Origin: Calliopsis andreniformis
Taxonomy: Eukaryota; Arthropoda; Insecta; Hymenoptera; Andrenidae
DNA length: 64,000 nucleotides
Assembly (NCBI RefSeq): GCF_051401765.1
Contig: NC_135066.1
Coordinates: 24,307,501-24,371,500 of the forward strand
Direction of reading: 5' to 3'
Both the position numbers and the translations under genes were made by a program. Under the pieces are notes generated by a model. The model saw only the letters and a list, made by a program, of their open reading frames with translations. It was not told the origin of the DNA and ran no database searches. Positions 28,639-61,848 of this stretch are shown here, one piece after another; the first letter of the stretch is position 1; each line of letters opens with the position of its first letter.

Positions 28639-28667
28639 CCCCCCCCCCCCCCCCCCCCCCCCCCCCC
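28639..28667. repeat. C29 homopolymer
   Basis: A run of 29 cytosines inside the endonuclease coding region of the X-type element. It may be a real expansion or a sequencing or assembly artefact. Confidence 0.9.
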
Positions 28668-35815: not shown

Positions 35816-38100
35816 CAATACGCCCCGGTTGGCAAAACGCCTCACTGTTGTATTGCGCATGTAAGTAAGGAGACTCCGTTGCAAACAACACGTTCGAACC
35901 TGCCTCAGTCGCCCACAGACATTGGTAAGGTACAAGCGTAATTTAATAATTTTATCAAAAAATATACAAAACTCTTGATTTTTGGCTTCTGAACAATTTA
36001 TGGTGAGTACTAAACAAATTTAGCTTTTTAAGTCACTATTGCTTGTATGATAAATTAACGTATATGTTTCAAAACTAGAAAAATTAACCTCTTTAAATCA
36101 ATGTTACCCACGCCTCTTGCCAATGCTTTATTGCCAAATTTAGACCGAGGCGTTTTGTATACAAGTACTTGCAAAACGCCCCAACCATTATTGAATAATA
36201 CATTCCACCTTCAAAATCATATTGCTTATACGTTATGACGCATTTTTTTCCGCGAAAATATGTAAGGACTACATTAAGGGCCTAAAAAAGATCTCAATGA
36301 GGCAATGGAAAAAGTAAAAACCAAACAAATGGGAATTAACGAAGCTTCTAGAATGTTCAACATACCTTCAAGATTTCTAAAAAGGCATATTAGTACAGGA
36401 AAATCTAAAGTTCCTCTAGATTGTTCAACAGTTTTTAGCAAAGAACATGAGAAAAGATTGGTTGCCCATATAAGGAAGTTAGAAAAAGTTGGATTTGCAC
36501 TGGATCGTAAGGATGTTAAAAAATTAGCCTACCAATTTGCTGAGAAACTCGAAATGAAACATTAGTTCTGTAATACCTCTATCTCAGCTGGTAATGTTTG
36601 GTTAAGTGGGTTTTTGAGACGTAATCCTGAATTAAGTATTCGTAAATCTGAAAGACTCTAGCTTACCAGTGCCCATGGTATGAATAGAAATGACGTTTAA
36701 GATTTTTTTAATATACTTTTGAAAATATATGAAGAAATGATTTGTTAAATAATCCTGGTAATATATTTAATATGGATGAAACAGGAATCCAAATTAATAA
36801 CAAATCAGGCAAACTTTTGGCCTCAAAAGGAGCTAAAGATGTATAGACCCTGACTAGTTGTGAAAAGGGAGAAAATGTTACTATAATATCCTGTTGTAAT
36901 GCCGAAGGAAATTTTTTGCCATCAATTTTGATTTTTAAAGGTACCTACATAAAACCTTAACTGATAGAAGGACTACTACCACCAGGTTCTGACGTCTATG
37001 TGAACAAGAAATCGTCATCATAACTGCTTAAATATTTTTGCCTAAAAAAGGCTAAGGAAAAGCCTTGATTATACATGGTCATATATGTATAAGATGGTCA
37101 TAGTTCTCATAGCAATAACGTACGTTTGTTAGAATTGGCTGAACAAGATGATGTCATACTACTGTGCTTCCCTAGCCGTACCACGCGCGCACTACAACCA
37201 CTCGACAGAACTTTTTTTAGGCCATTAAAAACATATTTCGGCTAAGAAGCAAAATCATGGATGGTAAACAACAAGGATAAAAAGATAACTCGCTATGATG
37301 TGTCAAAATTGATTGGCAAGGCTTAGAGCAAAGCTGCTTCTATATTTAATAGCATTTCAGCTTTGAAATCAACAGGAATATATCCATATGACCCAAATGC
37401 CATCCCAGACTATTTCTTTGCACTATGTGATACCTTACATGAGCAAAATTTTATAGAACATGGCTAAGAAAATGTTCCAGGTAACAGACAGAATGTTACT
37501 CCAACGAATACTGCACTAACAATTTCAGCGATGGATTCGATTGAAGAAACTTCCCATACATCTGTTGAACCACAACCAGGAACGTCTCGAATGAAGATAT
37601 CACCTTCCGAAGTTTTAACAGAAGTATATCTAGTGCCTAAGTTATCACCTGTGACTTCGAAAAACAAACAAAAAGCTGTCATACTTACATCACCGGATCA
37701 TATTAAAACAAAGAAAAAGCATCCTGAACAGAAACCAAAGACACAAAAATGGTATAAAAATACTAAACCAAAGACAAAACAAAGTAAGAATAGAACATCT
37801 TCTGAAAGTAGCAATGAGATCGAAATGAATACGTATACTTCAAAAGAAGAAATTTTCGATGAAGACACTAATAAATGCGTAGAGTGTACTGAATACTATT
37901 ATTATACTAAATCAACAGAAGACTGGATACAATGTACATCATGTTTAGCTTGGTTACATGAGTTCTGTAAAATGTACAATCCTTTTTGAAATCATTGTGT
38001 TCGAAAAGCCAACAGAGCAGCCCTTAATAAGAAATAATATAATTTCATTAGTTATTATTCTACGTTTGTTCGTAACTATAGTATTTGTTGCATTTGTTTA
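35816..38100 (+). mobile_element. decayed pogo-type DNA transposon
   Basis: Contains the transposase pseudogene at 36305-37989 and, upstream, three copies of a GCAAAACGCC word, one inverted (35829, about 36149 on the minus strand, and 36172), which look like subterminal transposase-binding repeats. The left end near ATACGCCCCGGTTGGC interrupts gypsy element 1. The right terminus was not found; the 3' limit is approximate. Confidence 0.6.
36305..37989 (+). pseudogene. pogo/Tigger-type transposase with C-terminal zinc finger
   Basis: The N-terminal open piece (36305-36565, 86 codons) is a psq-type helix-turn-helix followed by the start of a CENP-B-type DNA-binding domain (GINEASRMFNIPSRFLKRHI). 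The DDE core follows in broken frames: FNMDETGIQ (first D, 36774), DGHSSHSNNVRLLE (second D, about 37096) and LQPLDRTFFRPLKTYF (third D, about 37200). The tail (37531-37989, 152 codons) is lysine/serine-rich and ends in a Cys/His finger, CVECTEYYYY, then WIQCTSCLAWLHEFCK, a PHD-like pattern seen in some insect pogo proteins. At least six stops and one frameshift (36565-36775). Confidence 0.7.
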
Positions 38101-38177
38101 AACTTTTATAATATTTTATTAAGGATAATATACCTAAAGTAGTGAATTACTTATGTATAGGTATATTGTCTGTAACG

Positions 38178-38232
38178 TGCGTAGCGCGGTCGCGTTGGTC
38201 GGCAGAATGTTTTCTGCTCAAACGCTACGCGA
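38178..38232. repeat. two-level hairpin just upstream of the stem-loop element
   Basis: GCGTAGCG (about 38182-38189) pairs with CGCTACGC (38223-38230). Inside it, GCAGAA pairs with TTCTGC around a short loop. It is not part of the ten-unit array and its unit layout differs. Confidence 0.6.
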
Positions 38233-38432
38233 GTTAACAGTACTTCCGACAATGAAGTAGAGCAGTTACTTCACCCTCGATGATAGATTAATTATTGTGG
38301 ATTCGTTTTTGTCTAGTCCTATACAGGCTCCGCAGTGGATGCTTGTTCGAGGGAGGGTGGAGACTTGTTCAAAGGTCTGATTATTAAATATACTGTATTG
38401 TGTTTGCAATATTAAGATAGGTGAATATATTC

Positions 38433-39027
38433 TGTTACGAGATGGGAGGCGAGCAGTGCGAGAGACCGTCGATGATAGGTATATTTCCAAAGAATATAGT
38501 GGTTGATGTATTGGTTGGTACACGGACGAAACTGATGCGAGATCAGTGAGCCGTTGGGATTATTGTAGACGAGGACGAACCTGATGTGAAATCAGGGAGC
38601 CTCTGAGGATAGGTGTGCTTGCGGACGAAACTGATCGGTGATCCGTGAGCCGCAGGAGAGTGAGTTTGTGTGAACGTACCTGATGCGAAATCAGGGAGTC
38701 ACTAGGATCAGTTTTACAGACGAACTCAAATTAAATTAAGGTGCTGTTAAGGAGGTTGGCGAATTCGAACAGACGAGCCTGATGCGAAATCAGGGTGCTG
38801 TAAGGAAGTTGGATAATGTACAGACGAACCTGGTATCAGGTGGCTGTAGGAAGTAGACGAAACTGATGTAAAAATCGGTTAGCTACAGGATAGGTTAGCT
38901 TTCGTGGACAAACTCGAATAAATCGAGGAGCCACTAGGTTGAGTGCAGTTTCTTTGGAAGTAAGGGTATGCGGACGAAACTGATGTAAGATCAGAGAGCC
39001 GCAGGAGATGTTAGTGAGCCTCGTAAC
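38433..39027 (+). mobile_element. LTR-like element carrying a stem-loop array
   Basis: The termini TGTTACGAG and CTCGTAAC mirror each other and match those of the small element at 7223-7443. The interior is almost entirely the ten-unit array (38522-39002), preceded by about 85 bases without units. No open frame of note and no clear target duplication. It could be a solo LTR or a non-autonomous element. If an LTR, AATAAA is missing near this end. Confidence 0.45.
38522..39002 (+). repeat. array of ten co-varying stem-loop units
   Basis: Ten units at 38522, 38571, 38621, 38670, 38716, 38769, 38820, 38853, 38904 and 38970. Each reads: 4-base outer stem, ACGAA (or ACGTA, ACGAG, ACAAA), inner stem of 4-6 bp, loop of 4-8 bases (often G(T/C)GAA or GTAA), GAG/GTG/TGG/TAG, complementary outer stem, then AGGA or close to it. 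Outer stems are ACGG/CCGT, GAGG/CCTC, GCGG/CCGC, GTGA/TCAC, ACAG/CTGT (three times), GTAG/CTAC, GTGG/CCAC and GCGG/CCGC; all ten pair perfectly. Inner stems alternate between ACTGAT/ATCAGT, CCTGAT/ATCAGG and CTCGA/TCGAG; unit 5 is weak and unit 3 has one mismatch. Spacing is about 50 bases. Confidence 0.85.
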
Positions 39028-40051
39028 TTTTAAAATTATTAATTGATACAACTTGAGCGGTTAAGCTGTATCGTGGTGGATCTGTCAACTTCGAATGGGA
39101 TCGCTTAAGGTAGTTATAGGTTTGTAAGCAATCTACGCAAAATTACAATGAATACTTAAATATATTCTAAAATCAGTCTTTACGTACAAGTGTACGGTGT
39201 AGTGTTGTCGCGTAAAGTGTACGATTTTAATGCACGGTGTTAACGCACTGGCGATGCGGGGACTTACAGAGTGGTCGTAGGAATTATCAGATAGAATTTA
39301 TGCCGACTCGCGGATTCTATGAGGTTAACTGTAGACTCGAAAGGGAACTTTAGCCCGATCTAACTGGATAGCAACCCACTTTGACGAACTTGACTATCAA
39401 CGTGACGGTACTGTTCTGAACCCGTTAGGGCTAAAATCTCTGAGTTTATATAGGCCGAAAAATGAGTGGGGGTTCGTTAGAAATTTCCATATAAGGAAAT
39501 TTCTCACGGTTGGTACAGCGTCGTAGTTGCTACCCAGCTGCTCGGAGTCGCGCTTACATTAAAATAACGAAAAAAACCAGTGTGCTAGGGCGTTTTCTCT
39601 TAACAGGCAGAGACTTGAATATTTTGGAGAGTAGACGGAAAATATTCTCCGTACGTAACAATTCTGACGATAAACACATTTTAAAAGAACATTAAAGAGG
39701 AGAGTCAAGTAAAACAAAAATAAAAAAGGGTAAATATATAGATTAGGGGAGCTACCACCGATTTCAATGACGTTGGAATATGTTGTCAGGGTCATCATTC
39801 TGAACAACTTTTCCCTATACATATACCCGGCGGCCTCTTTTAGTTTTCGAGATATTCGCAAAGAAAGTTTTCAATATTGAAAAGAGTGATCGAAATAGGT
39901 CTGGGTTAGATTCGCTAACGAGAGCTTCTGTTTACCTTCCTCGCTGAAACCTATATTGTTGATATTTCTTATGATGTTGAAAGAACTCGAGGGAAGACGG
40001 TTTATTATTATCAGTTTCGAACAAATCGTTGTAACGTAACGTCGTGCATTA
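39028..40051. other. unassigned DNA, possible LTR debris
   Basis: No gene. A TTTATATAGGCCGAAAAATG box near 39448 and the palindromic AGAAATTTCCATATAAGGAAATTTCT at 39479-39504 (given here as its two arms AGAAATTTCC and GGAAATTTCT) look like LTR promoter DNA. GGGTCATCATTCTGAACAA (39789) resembles sequence found in other non-autonomous insect elements. I could not define boundaries. Confidence 0.3.
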
Positions 40052-41276
40052 ATTATTGTAGAAGTCGATGAAGCTAAATTTGAACGTCGAAAGTATAATC
40101 GTTGACGACTTATTAAGGTCGCTTCCCATTGCTGTAAGTTCGGGCCGCGAGCGCGTTCGCGGTCCGCTTGAAAGTGTCAACTCTACGAGCAGGAGGGTCT
40201 GAAGTACCCAGCGAGCCTGCACCGTGATCTGTTTAATCATCAAACGAGCCCGGCATATCCAAAGCGACCATGCACCCCGATCGCTGTCGCCGCCGCAGGC
40301 GGTCAACAAGGGGTAGGGTCTTCCGTCCCACAGTGTGTCGCCTATTGTGGAAATTTGGAACAAAACTCATTGCTCCTAATTTAATCAACTTTCGAACTAA
40401 GACATCCAATACTTTTCTAAAGAGAATACAAAGATGTATCGATTGACGTATTAAAAAAATATTAATTTTCATTAAGAAAATTGAGGTAACCCTGATTATT
40501 GTTGAAATTGCAGCTTTCAACAATAATTAACATGTTTTTGTCTCCTTTTAATGTATGAACTCGTACTGATACGCAATAAGTGCGCATATGCAAGTAATCT
40601 GTAGAAATAGCATACAAAATGAGGCTGAAAATTACAAATTTCACTCTGTTCACTGTGTTCGCGTGCTCGGGTGCTCGGATGCTCGGATGCTCGCGTGGAA
40701 TATAGCCGTGGCTGCTAGCGCCGAACGCCTCTCATGCTCGGACGCTCGTAAAAATCGACCCTTTCGAGTGGCTCGAAGCGTCGTATAGGCGACCTATGCT
40801 CGCCTAGTGGAAACGTCTTTTCGAACAAAATTCGCCGAGCACGCACAATTTATGACCGAACGAGCTCGTTACAGCAATGGGAAGCGACCTTTACGGGACA
40901 ATGGATTTTCGGGGGTATAGACCGTGACACAAAAAAGATATTTGTAGTACCAATTCTGTCCCGTAGAGCAGAAGTATTACTGCCTTTTACTTTAAAAAAG
41001 ATTGCTCCTGGAACAATAATCCATAGTGATTGTTGGAAAGCATATGAACAAATTGATAAAAATGTATATCAACATTTTGTAGTGAATCATTCCAAAAGTG
41101 TCGTTGATCCAATCACAGGTGTCAATATCCAGAATATTGAAAGAGTGTGGAGAGACATTCGTGGCAATACTCCTAGGTATGGTCGTAGAGAATATCATTT
41201 CAACCACTATTTAGCAGAATTTGTATTTAAAAGAACATTAGATCTTGACGAACGACTGGATGCCTTTTTCAAGTAA
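40052..41276 (+). pseudogene. Merlin (ISXO2-type DDE) transposase, split by a MITE
   Basis: The first part, 40052-40115, includes IIVEVDEAKFERRKYNR, the first catalytic aspartate region (V-E-x-D-E-x-K-F). The second, 40891-41276, starts before GQWIFGGIDRDTKKIFVVPI and continues with PGTIIHSDCWKAYEQI (second D), VNHSKSVVDPITG and NIQNIERVWRDIRG (catalytic E). This order is the ISXO2-like domain of Merlin transposases, which cut and paste DNA. The reading frame continues exactly if the MITE and one TTA are discounted. A TGA at 40103 and the absent N-terminal zinc region make it inactive. Confidence 0.75.
40116..40890. mobile_element. 775-bp MITE, PIF/Harbinger-like, inside Merlin transposase
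   Basis: The ends AGGTCGCTTCCCATTGCTG and its exact complement extend to 22 bases, next to TTA on both sides (40113-40115 and 40891-40893). A 3-bp TTA/TWA duplication with GG...CC ends is typical of PIF/Harbinger. The interior is non-coding, with short tandem GATGCTCG/GTGCTCGG words at 40660-40690. Insertion after Merlin is shown by the intact coding register across it. Confidence 0.75.
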
Positions 41277-57884: not shown

Positions 57885-58052
57885 TTGACGGGAGTGTGAC
57901 GTGATCGTGATCGTGAGTGCGATATCGGGTATACCGGACATAATAGACTTTGGCGGGTGATTCGCAGAAAGTGCCAAGACACTATAGTTATTCGTAGTTA
58001 AGTGTAGTTTTTAACGGTTAGACTTTAATACAAGGAGACTTAGTGAAAGACA

Positions 58053-58964
58053 ATGTCGGTCGATAATGACAGTGTGCCAGTTATACCGGGCCCATCCGGG
58101 GAGGCGTCCGCGACGGTAGCGCGAGTTTCAGTTCGAATTCCGGAGTTTTGCGCTACAGACCCGGAAATGTGGTTCGCTATGGTGGAAAGAAGCTTTGAAG
58201 CTTCAGGGGTGACCACGGAAGGCACAAAATTCGGTTACGTCCTGGGTGCATTGAGCCCGGTATATGCCGCGGAAGTGCGTGACATAATTATGAACCCGCC
58301 GACGGCCGGGCCCTATCAAAAATTAAAGGCAGAGTTGATTCGAAGGCTCAGTTCGACACAGGAACAGAAGACTCGTCGCCTCCTCGAGTCGGAAGTGATT
58401 GGGGACAGGAAACCATCGCAATTTCTTCGGCATTTGCCAGGATTGGCAGGAACCACCGTTTCTGACAGTGTCTTACGCACTCTGTGGATGGGAAGGTTAC
58501 CCACGAATATGCAAATTATTCTGGCAACCCAGAAGGATGTCGACCTCGACAAGGTGGCAGATTTGGCGGACGCTATAGCAGAGACAACGGGTCCACGAGT
58601 CCACATAGCCGAGTCAGCTGCACCGGTGGGAGCTCTTAAGGCAACGGGTCAACACAATTTGACGCAGGATTTGGAGGCCTTATTAAATTTAAAAATGGCC
58701 CAGCTCGCCGTGTCGTTCCGACAGGAAATTGCAGCGATGCGGCAAGAACTGTTAAGTGAAGGACGATTTTCACGATTTGAGAGGACTTATCGACAGAGAT
58801 CACCCTCTCGTCAACGTACGCGTCAGCGTTCGGTTTCCCGACGACGTGCAGAAGAGAGGCAAGGAAGGTACTTCTACCATTGGCGTTGGGGAGCTGGTGC
58901 ACACAGGTGTGTTCCACCATGCAACTGGAATGACACGGCGGGAAACGAGTCGGGCGGTCGTTAA
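58053..58964 (+). CDS. gag of gypsy element 2
   Basis: 303 codons from the first ATG after the leader (MSVDNDSVPVIPGPSG). The middle (residues about 30-200) is the retrotransposon gag fold: FCATDPEMWFAMVERSFEAS, LIRRLSSTQEQKTRRLLESE and RTLWMGRLPTNMQIILA. An Arg/Ser-rich tract (about 245-270) precedes FYHWRWGAGAHRCVPPC, the atypical Cys/His box of insect gypsy gag, in which the first Cys of the usual C-x-YH pattern is Phe here. The stop at 58964 precedes pol in a different frame, so pol needs a frameshift. It forms the virus-like particle. Confidence 0.85.
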   Translation: MSVDNDSVPVIPGPSGEASATVARVSVRIPEFCATDPEMWFAMVERSFEASGVTTEGTKFGYVLGALSPVYAAEVRDIIMNPPTAGPYQKLKAELIRRLSSTQEQKTRRLLESEVIGDRKPSQFLRHLPGLAGTTVSDSVLRTLWMGRLPTNMQIILATQKDVDLDKVADLADAIAETTGPRVHIAESAAPVGALKATGQHNLTQDLEALLNLKMAQLAVSFRQEIAAMRQELLSEGRFSRFERTYRQRSPSRQRTRQRSVSRRRAEERQGRYFYHWRWGAGAHRCVPPCNWNDTAGNESGGR

Positions 58965-59034
58965 TGACGGCTGACGGGTCTTGCCCGATGCCACGCCGTC
59001 TTTTCGTGTCCGATAAGGAAACAAAAACGCAATT

Positions 59035-61848
59035 TTGGTCGACATAGGAGCCGACCTTTGTGTTTATCCGAGATCGATGACCCATGATCCACGCCAAAAA
59101 TTAAGGGATGTTCTGTACGCGGCGAATGGATCAGTAATATCGACGTATGGTGCGGTTACGTTAAGGTTGGATCTGGGACTGCGTCGGGCGTTTACGTGGC
59201 GATTCGTGGTGGCCGACGTATCGAAACCCATAATCGGGGTGGATTTCCTATACCACTACGGACTTTTAGTGGATATACGTAACCGTCGATTGTTGGACAA
59301 TGTGACGTCTCTGTCGGTACCGAGGCAGCTGGCAGGTCAGAGTGCGGAGTCGATTCCGTGCGTAAAAACGGTTGCGGGCGGTTCTGTGTTCCTGAAAGTC
59401 CTACAGAAATATCCAGAAATTACAAAGCCAGAGGGAATTCCGGCACCGGCGAAGCATTCGACGATGCATTACATCAGGACGACGCCAGGTCAGCCGGTCA
59501 CCTGTAAGCCACGGCGTTTAGCACCTGATCGACTGAAGGCTGCAAAACAGGAGTTCGACACCATGATCAAGTTAGGAATTGTCAGACCGTCGGAAAGCAG
59601 CTGGTCGTCACCTTTGCACGTAGTGCCGAAAAAGGAACCGGGGGAATGGAGACCGTGCGGTGACTATCGGGCACTTAATGCGCGAACATTGCCGGATAGA
59701 TACCCCGTGAGACACATCGAAGATTTCGCACAATCTTTGTCGGGAAAGAAAGTGTTTTCCACGATTGATTTAGTGCGCGCGTATAATCAGATACCCGTGG
59801 CCCCCGAGGACGTGTGTAAAACAGCTTTAACAACCCCGTTCGGATTGTTTGAGTTTCCAGTGATGCCCTTTGGTTTACGTAATGTAGCACAAACATTCCA
59901 ACGATTTATTGATGAGGTGATACGCGGATTGGACTTCGTATATGCTTACATAGACGATATTATTATGGCATCAGAATCGGAAGAAGAGCACCTTGAACAT
60001 TTAAAGGCATTATTCGATAGACTTAAACGGTACGGTGTAGTTGTGAATTCCGGGAAGTGCGTGTTTGGCAAAGAGAAGGTGCAGTTTCTGGGCTACTTAG
60101 TGAATGAAAACGGTACGCAACCTCTAGACAATAAAGTGCGGGCAATTTTAGACTATCCGCAACCGGCTACAGCGAAGCAGCTCAGGCAGTTCCTAGGTAT
60201 GATGAACTTTTATAGACGGTTCATACCTAGGGCTGCACAGATTCAGGCCCCACTAAATAACCTGCTGCGGGAAAATCTGAAGGGTCGCGCACCAATTGCC
60301 TGGACACCGGAAGCGACGGCAGCATTTGAAGAGTCGAAGCGGACGCTAGCGCAGGCTACTCTATTGGCGCATCCACGGATCGGCGCCCCGCTTGCACTTA
60401 CGTGCTATGCTTCGGATTTCTCCGTCGGGACTGTTCTACAGCAACACACGGCCAATGGATGGGAGCTGCTAGGTTTTTTTTTCGAAGAAGCTGACCGCTA
60501 TGGAAGCGAACTATGGTGCTTATGATAGAGAACTTTTAGCGATATATTTAGCAATTAGGTATTTTAAGCATATGGTAGAAGGTCGTAAATTTACCATTTT
60601 TACGGACCACAAGCCGATCACTTTCGCCTTCCAACAGAAACCAGAGAAATGCTCTCCAAGGCAATTTAGGTATCTCGATTTCATTGGACAATTTTCAACC
60701 GATATCAAACATGTGGCCGGTAAGGACAACGTGGTGGCAGATGTTTTATCCAGGATTGACGAGATGGAAGAACTCCTAAAATATGAAGAGCTGGCGAAGG
60801 CGCAGGAGACAGACGAGGAACTCCAAACGTACTGCGCGAAGATGGATCTAGCACACTACGTTTGAAGAAAGTTAGGATTCCTGGTGCAAGCAGTTTGGTT
60901 TTTTGTAATGTGTCGACGGGTTCGGTGAGACCGTTTGTTACGAAAACATTTCGCCGCGCCGCTTTTGACACAGTCCATAGACTTGCGCATCCAGGCATCA
61001 ATGCAACGGTGAAATTAATGTCGGATCGGTATGTGTGGCCGTCAATGAAATCAGACTGTAGACGCTGGGCGCGGGCGTGCATACCGTGTCAACGTTCGAA
61101 AATATCTAAACATGTGCACTCGCCGCTTGGACAATTTTCTTCCTCAGGAAGATTTGAACATATTCATATAGACATTGTAGTATTACCTGTATCGGAGGGA
61201 TACAGATATTGCCTCACCTGTGTTGACCGCTTCACGCGGTGGCCGGAAGCCTTTCCGCTAAAGGACCAGGAGGCACCGACGGTGGCGCGCGCGTTTTACG
61301 ATGGTTGGATCGCGCGTTTTGGGACCCCTTTGCGAGTGACAACGGACCAGGGGAGGCAATTTGAGTCCTACCTGTTTAGGCATTTAAGTGAGTTAACAGG
61401 TACATCACATTTAAGGACAACGGCGTATCACCCAGCAGCGAACGGTATGGTGGAATGGTTTCACCGCCAGTTAAAGGCTGCCATTCGTTGCCACCAAGAG
61501 CTCCAGTGGACAAAGGTTCTTCCCACCATATTGCTAGGCATACGCGCAGCCTGGAGGGAAGATACTAAGTCGACAGCAGCAGAACTAGTGTATGGCGAGA
61601 CGCTACGGTTACCTGGCGAATTTCTAGCGCCACGACCAGCCGAGACCGATCACGAGGCGGCTGAATTCGTTAAGGAACTGCGTCGGCTTTTCCGTGGGGT
61701 TACACCAGTTGCAGGGTTCCAGCATGGGGTAGAGCGGATTTTTATATTTAAAGATTTAGCGGTCACCGACGAGGTTTTCGTCAGGAACGATACCGTAAAG
61801 AGGATATTACAACCACCATACGATGGGCCGTTTAAAGTCGTCTCGTGA
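59035..61848 (+). pseudogene. pol of gypsy element 2 (protease, RT, RNase H, integrase), frame-broken
   Basis: The protease core reads [11 protein letters not shown] (usual D-T/S-G here D-I-G). Reverse transcriptase, 59500-60230: [35 protein letters not shown] and [11 protein letters not shown] (catalytic DD). Frame 1 breaks at a T9 run (60474-60482); RNase H continues in frame 2 (60500-60865: [23 protein letters not shown]). It returns to frame 1 near 60845-60862. Integrase, 60862-61848: HPGINATVKLM, CIPCQRSK (zinc domain), IHIDIVVLPV, VTTDQGRQF and NGMVEWFHR (D, D, E all present). A TGA at 61846 cuts the tail, which continues in the same frame (LKPAYVMAD, TRSGRRVRFP) to 62094. Confidence 0.9.

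Follow-up and report, generated by a model that had tools for sequence, protein, structure and literature searches.

Tandem covarying hairpins in the long terminal repeat of an errantivirus-like element of Calliopsis andreniformis

The packaging signal psi of retroviruses lies beside the primer-binding site in the leader of the gag-encoding RNA and is built of structured hairpins that expose their loops, and the CTE and RTE elements of simple retroviruses are internal-loop hairpins that recruit an export factor. In Ty1 and Ty3, RNA structure at the 5' end has been implicated in packaging and reverse transcription (PMC4974528). The 5' UTR of gypsy carries 12 Su(Hw) repeats, which are DNA sites for an insulator protein, together with two internal ribosome entry sites (IRESs), according to a review (PMC4276936). 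Plant long terminal repeats (LTRs) can contain hammerhead ribozymes, as in retrozymes (PMC4918200).

An array of hairpins that resembles each of these systems in part lies in a 64,000-nucleotide stretch of contig NC_135066.1 of C. andreniformis (hereafter the window). Its ten units, at 38522-39002, are visible on the plus strand of the window and repeat one structural plan. As in psi, structured hairpins that expose their loops would stand beside the primer-binding site in the leader of a gag-encoding RNA; the array differs from psi in repeating one type of hairpin five to ten times, in its position inside the LTR (R-U5), and in its family-specific motifs. It shares internal-loop hairpins with the CTE and RTE, but differs from them in location and has no demonstrable loop sequence in common with them. 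The gypsy 5' UTR is likewise an errantivirus leader region that carries cis-elements in repeated copies (PMC4276936), although no Su(Hw) sites were found here and the stems of the present array covary. Structured RNA at the 5' end is the feature shared with Ty1 and Ty3, for which the sections of the source used here describe no hairpin array (PMC4974528). Retrozymes likewise hold a structured RNA motif within the LTR, whereas the present array has no hammerhead match in Rfam and does not consist of ribozymes (PMC4918200).

Our literature search found no description of such an array. Rfam gives no match at the gathering threshold in the window, and none up to an E value of 0.5 in four loci that represent the families treated below (L133, L186, L201, and L202). 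Three matches below gathering fall within 37000-41000 (algC, mir-208, and sR33); none is a ribozyme, and all were taken as chance. A hammerhead reading based on GGACGAAAC and CUGAUG boxes was rejected, as the order of the boxes is wrong by eye and the CTGAT part belongs to an exchangeable stem. In IMG/VR, a strict pattern of the unit finds nothing and pieces of pol find no relatives; a loose pattern finds at least 80 stretches, with one match each among the matches listed, and the pattern of a sister family finds 13 stretches with a single match each. Four stretches with one match each in prokaryote genomes were also taken as chance.

The host element and its leader

The array is contained in a solo LTR of a Ty3/gypsy errantivirus-like element, on the minus strand at 38433-39660 (TGTTACG...CGTAACA). 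This assignment follows from the sharp repeat ends at 38433 and 39660, which are common to the full-length copies compared, from the TG...CA termini, and from the 4-bp target-site duplication ATTC on both sides (38429-38432 and 39661-39664). The LTR is 94.6-97.2% identical to those of the full-length copies compared. In the genome from which the window comes (1.02 Gb in 489 contigs), 661 bases around the array match at least 40 scored places among 317 first-look candidates, a lower bound that includes the window; the others are 96-98% identical.

At one locus (C381) two such LTRs stand 12.2 kb apart and flank a full element with gag, a pol frame of 1459 codons, a Baculo_F env split between two frames, and an ORF with a Tudor domain. 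The pol of L133, a copy of this family (family 1) that is better preserved than the window's, contains in order RVT_1 (369-534), RT_RNaseH (622-725), Integrase_H2C2 (1111-1165), and rve (1188-1280). The env matches PF12259 at L134:295-1404 (3e-29), while the env match at L133:7344-7892 falls under the curated cut-off (18.5 vs 24.1 bits). No Pfam domain was matched in gag, whose translation shows a CX2CX4HX4C zinc knuckle. Three bases past the LTR stands TGGTGACAGCGGTGGGAT, a putative primer-binding site that is common to several families. The LTR ends, the order of reverse transcriptase (RT), RNase H, and integrase, and the Baculovirus-F-like env all fit the classification of the element as a high-copy, errantivirus-like member of Ty3/gypsy.

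The Tudor ORF of the C381 copy (L134:1861-2451; PF00567, 1.1e-16) lies between env and the 3' LTR. It is possibly a captured host domain; among 135 candidates in the protein collection searched, none reaches E <= 0.001. At another locus (C63), two LTRs are 3.4 kb apart and the sequence between them matches neither L133 nor L134, so no spliced copy was found there. A GTAAGT at position 709 of L133, upstream of the array, is a candidate splice donor as judged from its letters.

Elsewhere in the window, an IS1595/ISXO2-like transposase fragment (PF12762, 3.1e-16) occupies 40752-41276, and 58047-61848 holds a second Ty3/gypsy element with an RT and a frame that matches DUF7041 (PF23055). A remnant at 36280-37990, which by eye we take to resemble a pogo/Tigger-type DNA transposon, has a last frame without a Pfam match. 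A run of 29 C at 28639-28667, which an open frame of a non-LTR retrotransposon reads as a string of prolines, may reflect misassembly or else have expanded recently.

In L133, gag and pol lie downstream of the same LTR and run opposite to the window's plus strand, which makes the window's minus strand the sense of the element. The initial annotation had read the hairpins on the plus strand and thus in antisense. In sense coordinates of L133, the LTR spans 316-1540, with TATATAA at 524 (LTR position 209) and the array occupying 973-1451; TGGTGACAGCGGTGGGAT begins at 1544, and gag has its first ATG at 1677. The corresponding TATA box of the window is at 39446-39452 on the minus strand, and the U3/R boundary is expected shortly downstream of it in sense. 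Because the array falls between the TATA box, from which the transcript start is taken, and TGGTGACAGCGGTGGGAT, it would belong to R-U5 of the sense RNA and hence to the gag leader, 5' of the LTR end and the primer-binding site.

This leader is free of ATG. From L133 553, a start picked from the TATA box, to 1676, the 1124 nt of the sense strand contain none, vs 18 on the other strand; dinucleotide shuffles average 10.1, and none of 1000 is ATG-free. The leader of the sister family also lacks ATG in sense over 1000 nt (L186 215-1214), where shuffles average 11.0 and the other strand has eight; an ATG follows at 1215, 180 nt ahead of the presumed gag start at 1395. Such AUG-free stretches would suit an array that tunes the translation of gag, whether by weak hairpins in a scanning-competent leader or as an IRES, of which two are reported for gypsy (PMC4276936). 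Scanning, however, has no need of conserved loops and an IRES no need of AUG avoidance, and a further group of elements with repeated hairpins (L201) has ATGs there. A translational role is distinctly unlikely.

Pairing and covariation in the ten units

In sense, each unit consists of (U)CCU, a 4-bp outer stem of free sequence, a CUC-type loop, an inner stem of free sequence, a UUCGU-type loop, and the returning outer stem. The ten units, all assigned to the minus strand, are numbered along the plus strand, so that u10 (38970-39002) comes first in sense and u1 (38522-38554) last. Between them lie u2 (38571-38603), u3 (38621-38653), u4 (38670-38702), u5 (38716-38747), u6 (38769-38801), u7 (38820-38847), u8 (38853-38886), and u9 (38904-38934), and the ACGAA-type anchors of the ten are found at 38526, 38575, 38625, 38674, 38720, 38773, 38824, 38857, 38908, and 38974. 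The inner stem of u9 is CTCGA/TCGAG, and that of u5 is CTCAA/TTGAG in L133; in the window copy the latter contains one C.A when read on the plus strand. A covariance model built from the units, as the initial annotation had proposed, recovers nine of the ten in the window and no further site in its 64 kb up to an E value of 10; the unit missed is u7, which has a short inner stem.

Some bases of the unit are fixed. The C that opens the 5' loop and the CGU that closes the 3' loop are invariant in all ten units of L133, and in folds of single units that C pairs with the G and leaves the U bulged in eight of ten (the exceptions are u5 and u6). UCCU occurs within 8 nt upstream of nine of the ten family-1 units. 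The initial annotation had seen AGGA after every unit; it follows eight of ten, u1 and u9 being the exceptions. The linkers between units contain 6.3% G in sense, as if mispairing with the stems were avoided.

The outer stems of u1 to u10 (ACGG, GAGG, GCGG, GTGA, ACAG, ACAG, ACAG, GTAG, GTGG, and GCGG) comprise seven distinct sequences, and all 40 of their 40 cells are paired in the window copy, in full agreement with the initial annotation. Its further statement that the inner stem changes in step holds for L133, where 96 of 96 stem pairs are Watson-Crick, and less strictly for the window copy, where five of the 60 inner cells fail to pair when the plus strand is read; two of these are the sixth column in u5 and u9, units with stems of only 5 bp. 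Outer and inner stems of the window copy together have 95 of 100 cells paired, a value as high in none of 500 shuffles. Both sides have changed in eight of ten pairs (1/500 shuffles), and the covariation score is reached by 0/500. The count of pair types is not raised, with 476 of 500 shuffles as high, nor is it above shuffles in L133 (497/500). Shifting the partner by one to three columns reduces pairing to 18-47%, and when the 3' halves of the outer stems are re-dealt among the units, just 12 of the 10! deals pair perfectly (3.3e-6). In the sense alignment of L133 (A6), pairing amounts to 100% in helix 1 and to 96.3% in helix 2, and both unpaired cells belong to the sixth inner column.

Covariation beyond phylogenetic expectation, on which the initial annotation had staked its reading, was assessed by neutral simulations on random coalescent trees or stars at three rates (4000 runs each), which span a range of possible trees for the units. 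For the nine simulated pairs, L133 has 85 of 85 cells paired and 22 doubly changed cells, so that each of the 44 changed letters has its compensating partner. Both values together are reached in none of the 24,000 simulations, 19,903 of which had as many changes or more. Evolution thus seems to protect the folded shape rather than the sequence of the stems, and the original proposal of selection on a folded nucleic acid is upheld by the compensations within the array, by a sister family that combines these loops with other inner stems, and by compensations at corresponding positions in diverged LTRs.

Variation among family-1 copies was followed in 34 further distinct copies, 32 young (the window's included) and two old, after removal of identical copies and of those with fewer than about 430 aligned array bases. 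Most listed kinds of stem change occur in one copy each, and 9 of the 32 young copies have no unpaired stem cell. The window copy differs from L133 in four pairs, in u3, u5, u8, and u10. The u3 and u5 differences recur in no other young copy, and the u5 pair is still G.U in sense; the u8 difference recurs in 2 and the u10 difference in 21 of the 31 other young copies. The two old LTRs, L142 (the same place as in L136) and L176, each have two double compensations in u8. The first inner pair of u10 is mispaired in 22 of the 32 young copies.

Paired changes could arise with no structural selection at all if an inverted repeat templated its own copying, reverse transcriptase switching templates and remaking complementary arms; this would yield compensation devoid of function and would explain the free sequence of the stems. 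It would not explain loops that are mostly fixed while stems differ between units, and arms made in this way would be perfectly complementary, lacking the strand-biased G.U pairs described below for families 2 and 3. In young copies, moreover, the outer stems (0.0059 per site) and the 3' loop (0.0069) vary less than the linkers (0.013), although the 5' loop varies more (0.026) and the inner stems equally (0.0135), being less variable than linkers only when the shared u10 variant is excluded (0.0074). Templated copying is a very improbable source of the pattern.

Extremely improbable is a reading in which the repeats bind a protein as duplex DNA, in the manner of the 12 Su(Hw) sites of the gypsy 5' UTR. 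The number and position of the repeats do resemble the gypsy insulator (PMC4276936), but compensatory changes in the stems would be left unexplained. Neither Su(Hw)-type sites nor TGCATA cores occur on either strand of the window LTR, the L133 LTR, or L186 1-985.

Related families and the strand that folds

A protein search with 401 pol residues gave 104 matches, and the upstream stretches of 19 of these loci, all outside family 1, were viewed. The sister family (family 2; C207/L186), with 83% RT identity to family 1, has five units, rather than ten, of the form GTGG-CUC-...-UUCGU-CCAC. Their outer stem and loops are those of family 1, while the inner stems are longer and of different sequence (7-9 pairs as tabulated, 7-11 by scanner), and UCC lies within 10 nt upstream of four of the five. 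Two of the five units are identical, and the same five are present in nine of nine further copies, one of which has an extra mismatch.

Family 3 (L202), at 66% RT identity, has five 29-nt hairpins with another motif at L202:161-363: a free 7-bp outer stem, a G, and AGCGG-ACCR-CCGCU. Of their 60 cells 96.7% are paired (0/500 shuffles), and the number of doubly changed pairs, six, is not unusual (54/500). The array is inside a 1156-bp repeat, the two copies of which are 11.6 kb apart and are taken as LTRs. Parts of this repeat occur in two diverged relatives, L232 and L234 (72% and 77%), where seven units keep 10-12 of 12 pairs with changes compensated. The sole TATA-like site of the shared repeat sits after the array, and the family-3 array may therefore be in U3. 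In a fourth group (L201/L187), inspection shows GACCGCU...AGCGACC repeats around different hairpins, downstream of a TATA box (L201:210-690).

Five loci have a clear primer-binding site (L188, L189, L190, L203, and L205), and at these, the only loci where absence was counted, no copy of the family 1/2 motif is present; packaging thus does not generally require that motif. L188:596-672 and L189:243-370 hold two-copy repeats of another kind, hairpin-like and with stems compensated by eye, the former directly ahead of the primer-binding site. L190 has an AT-rich repeat, L203 and L205 have no such repeat, and the 166-bp tandem repeats of L204 show no hairpin pattern by eye.

The strand that folds can be read from wobble pairs, as a G.U on one strand is an A.C mispair on the other. 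Families 2 and 3 in sense have 12 G.U vs 1 A.C (0.003 in a two-sided binomial test that enters the duplicated unit a single time), a ratio that may carry some bias since the stem limits were drawn by eye in sense, and that becomes 8:1 once the terminal pair of unit a is left out together with the three wobbles in the final hairpin of family 3. Outside this count, L232 and L234 add seven G.U and one A.C, the latter in L234; their G.U pairs are in one hairpin each and are in part inherited in common with L202. Among decaying copies of family 1, G.U outnumbers A.C by 32 to 19, which is only suggestive of sense. The mean probability of the target pairs is higher in sense than in antisense for family 2 (0.513 vs 0.374) and family 3 (0.760 vs 0.466), and equal for family 1 (0.765 and 0.766). 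Folding of whole arrays against dinucleotide shuffles gives z values of -5.6 in sense and -6.3 in antisense for L133, of -2.08 and -0.17 for L186, and of -2.14 in sense for L202.

Strong-stop DNA is a copy of R-U5, and the folded molecule could be the window's plus strand, either as minus-strand strong-stop DNA or as an antisense LTR transcript. All ten single hairpins of family 1 are indeed predicted to be more stable as antisense RNA, and their antisense apical loops are purine-rich and GNRA-like by eye. Against this stand the 12:1 excess of G.U in sense and the weaker antisense folding of families 2 and 3, as well as an AUG avoidance confined to sense, and folding of the plus strand is quite improbable. 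The sense RNA is most likely the strand that folds. The recombination or cruciform substrate once considered for these units has become less likely as well, given that strand-biased G.U pairs point to RNA.

A candidate packaging signal

Stems of free sequence combined with fixed loops and a constant single-stranded tag, all repeated many times, have the look of a multivalent protein-binding RNA. The reading we favor, tentatively, is that the array is such an RNA and probably a packaging signal bound by Gag in the R-U5 leader. As a cis-acting RNA element of an errantivirus-like Ty3/gypsy leader, it would use its stems as scaffolds that present conserved loop bases (the invariant C, CGU, the probable C-G pair, and the bulged U) to a protein, and the many copies of the hairpin would provide avidity. 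The likeliest reader would be the element's own Gag with its zinc knuckle, in which case the array would mark full-length RNA for packaging. Of the explanations put forward in the initial annotation, the class that still serves best is that of a protein-binding RNA acting as a signal for packaging or transport, although the LTR setting and the likely opposite polarity of the folded strand had been missed.

A host RNA-binding protein might read the array instead, for nuclear export or oocyte localisation of the unspliced RNA, in the manner of an export element or of an array of localisation hairpins. Such a factor would be well served by several small hairpins whose loops are fixed and which, in 9/10 units, have a single-stranded UCCU close upstream, and the signal by which unspliced gypsy RNA is exported is stated to be unknown (PMC4276936). 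A host factor, however, should pick one motif, and families 1 and 2, family 3, and the L201/L187 family differ, which makes this reading unlikely. The motif is kept at 83% RT identity and replaced by another or missing in the relatives viewed at 61-68%, as expected of coevolution with a protein of the element, and this favors Gag over a host protein. A broader view, possible if doubtful, is that the LTR arrays of the errantivirus-like elements in this genome form the long-sought packaging (or export) code, in which stems of free sequence display a family's own loop motif many times over, related families swap that motif, and each recognises no RNA but its own.

For gypsy, neither the psi element nor the export signal was known as of a 2014 review (PMC4276936), and a short, strongly covarying, high-copy element now sits where the packaging or export signal of an errantivirus could be. 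The related families amount to a natural experiment, one with the same loops on new stems and another with the motif replaced. The array is therefore a directly testable candidate, with neutral and disruptive variants ready-made.
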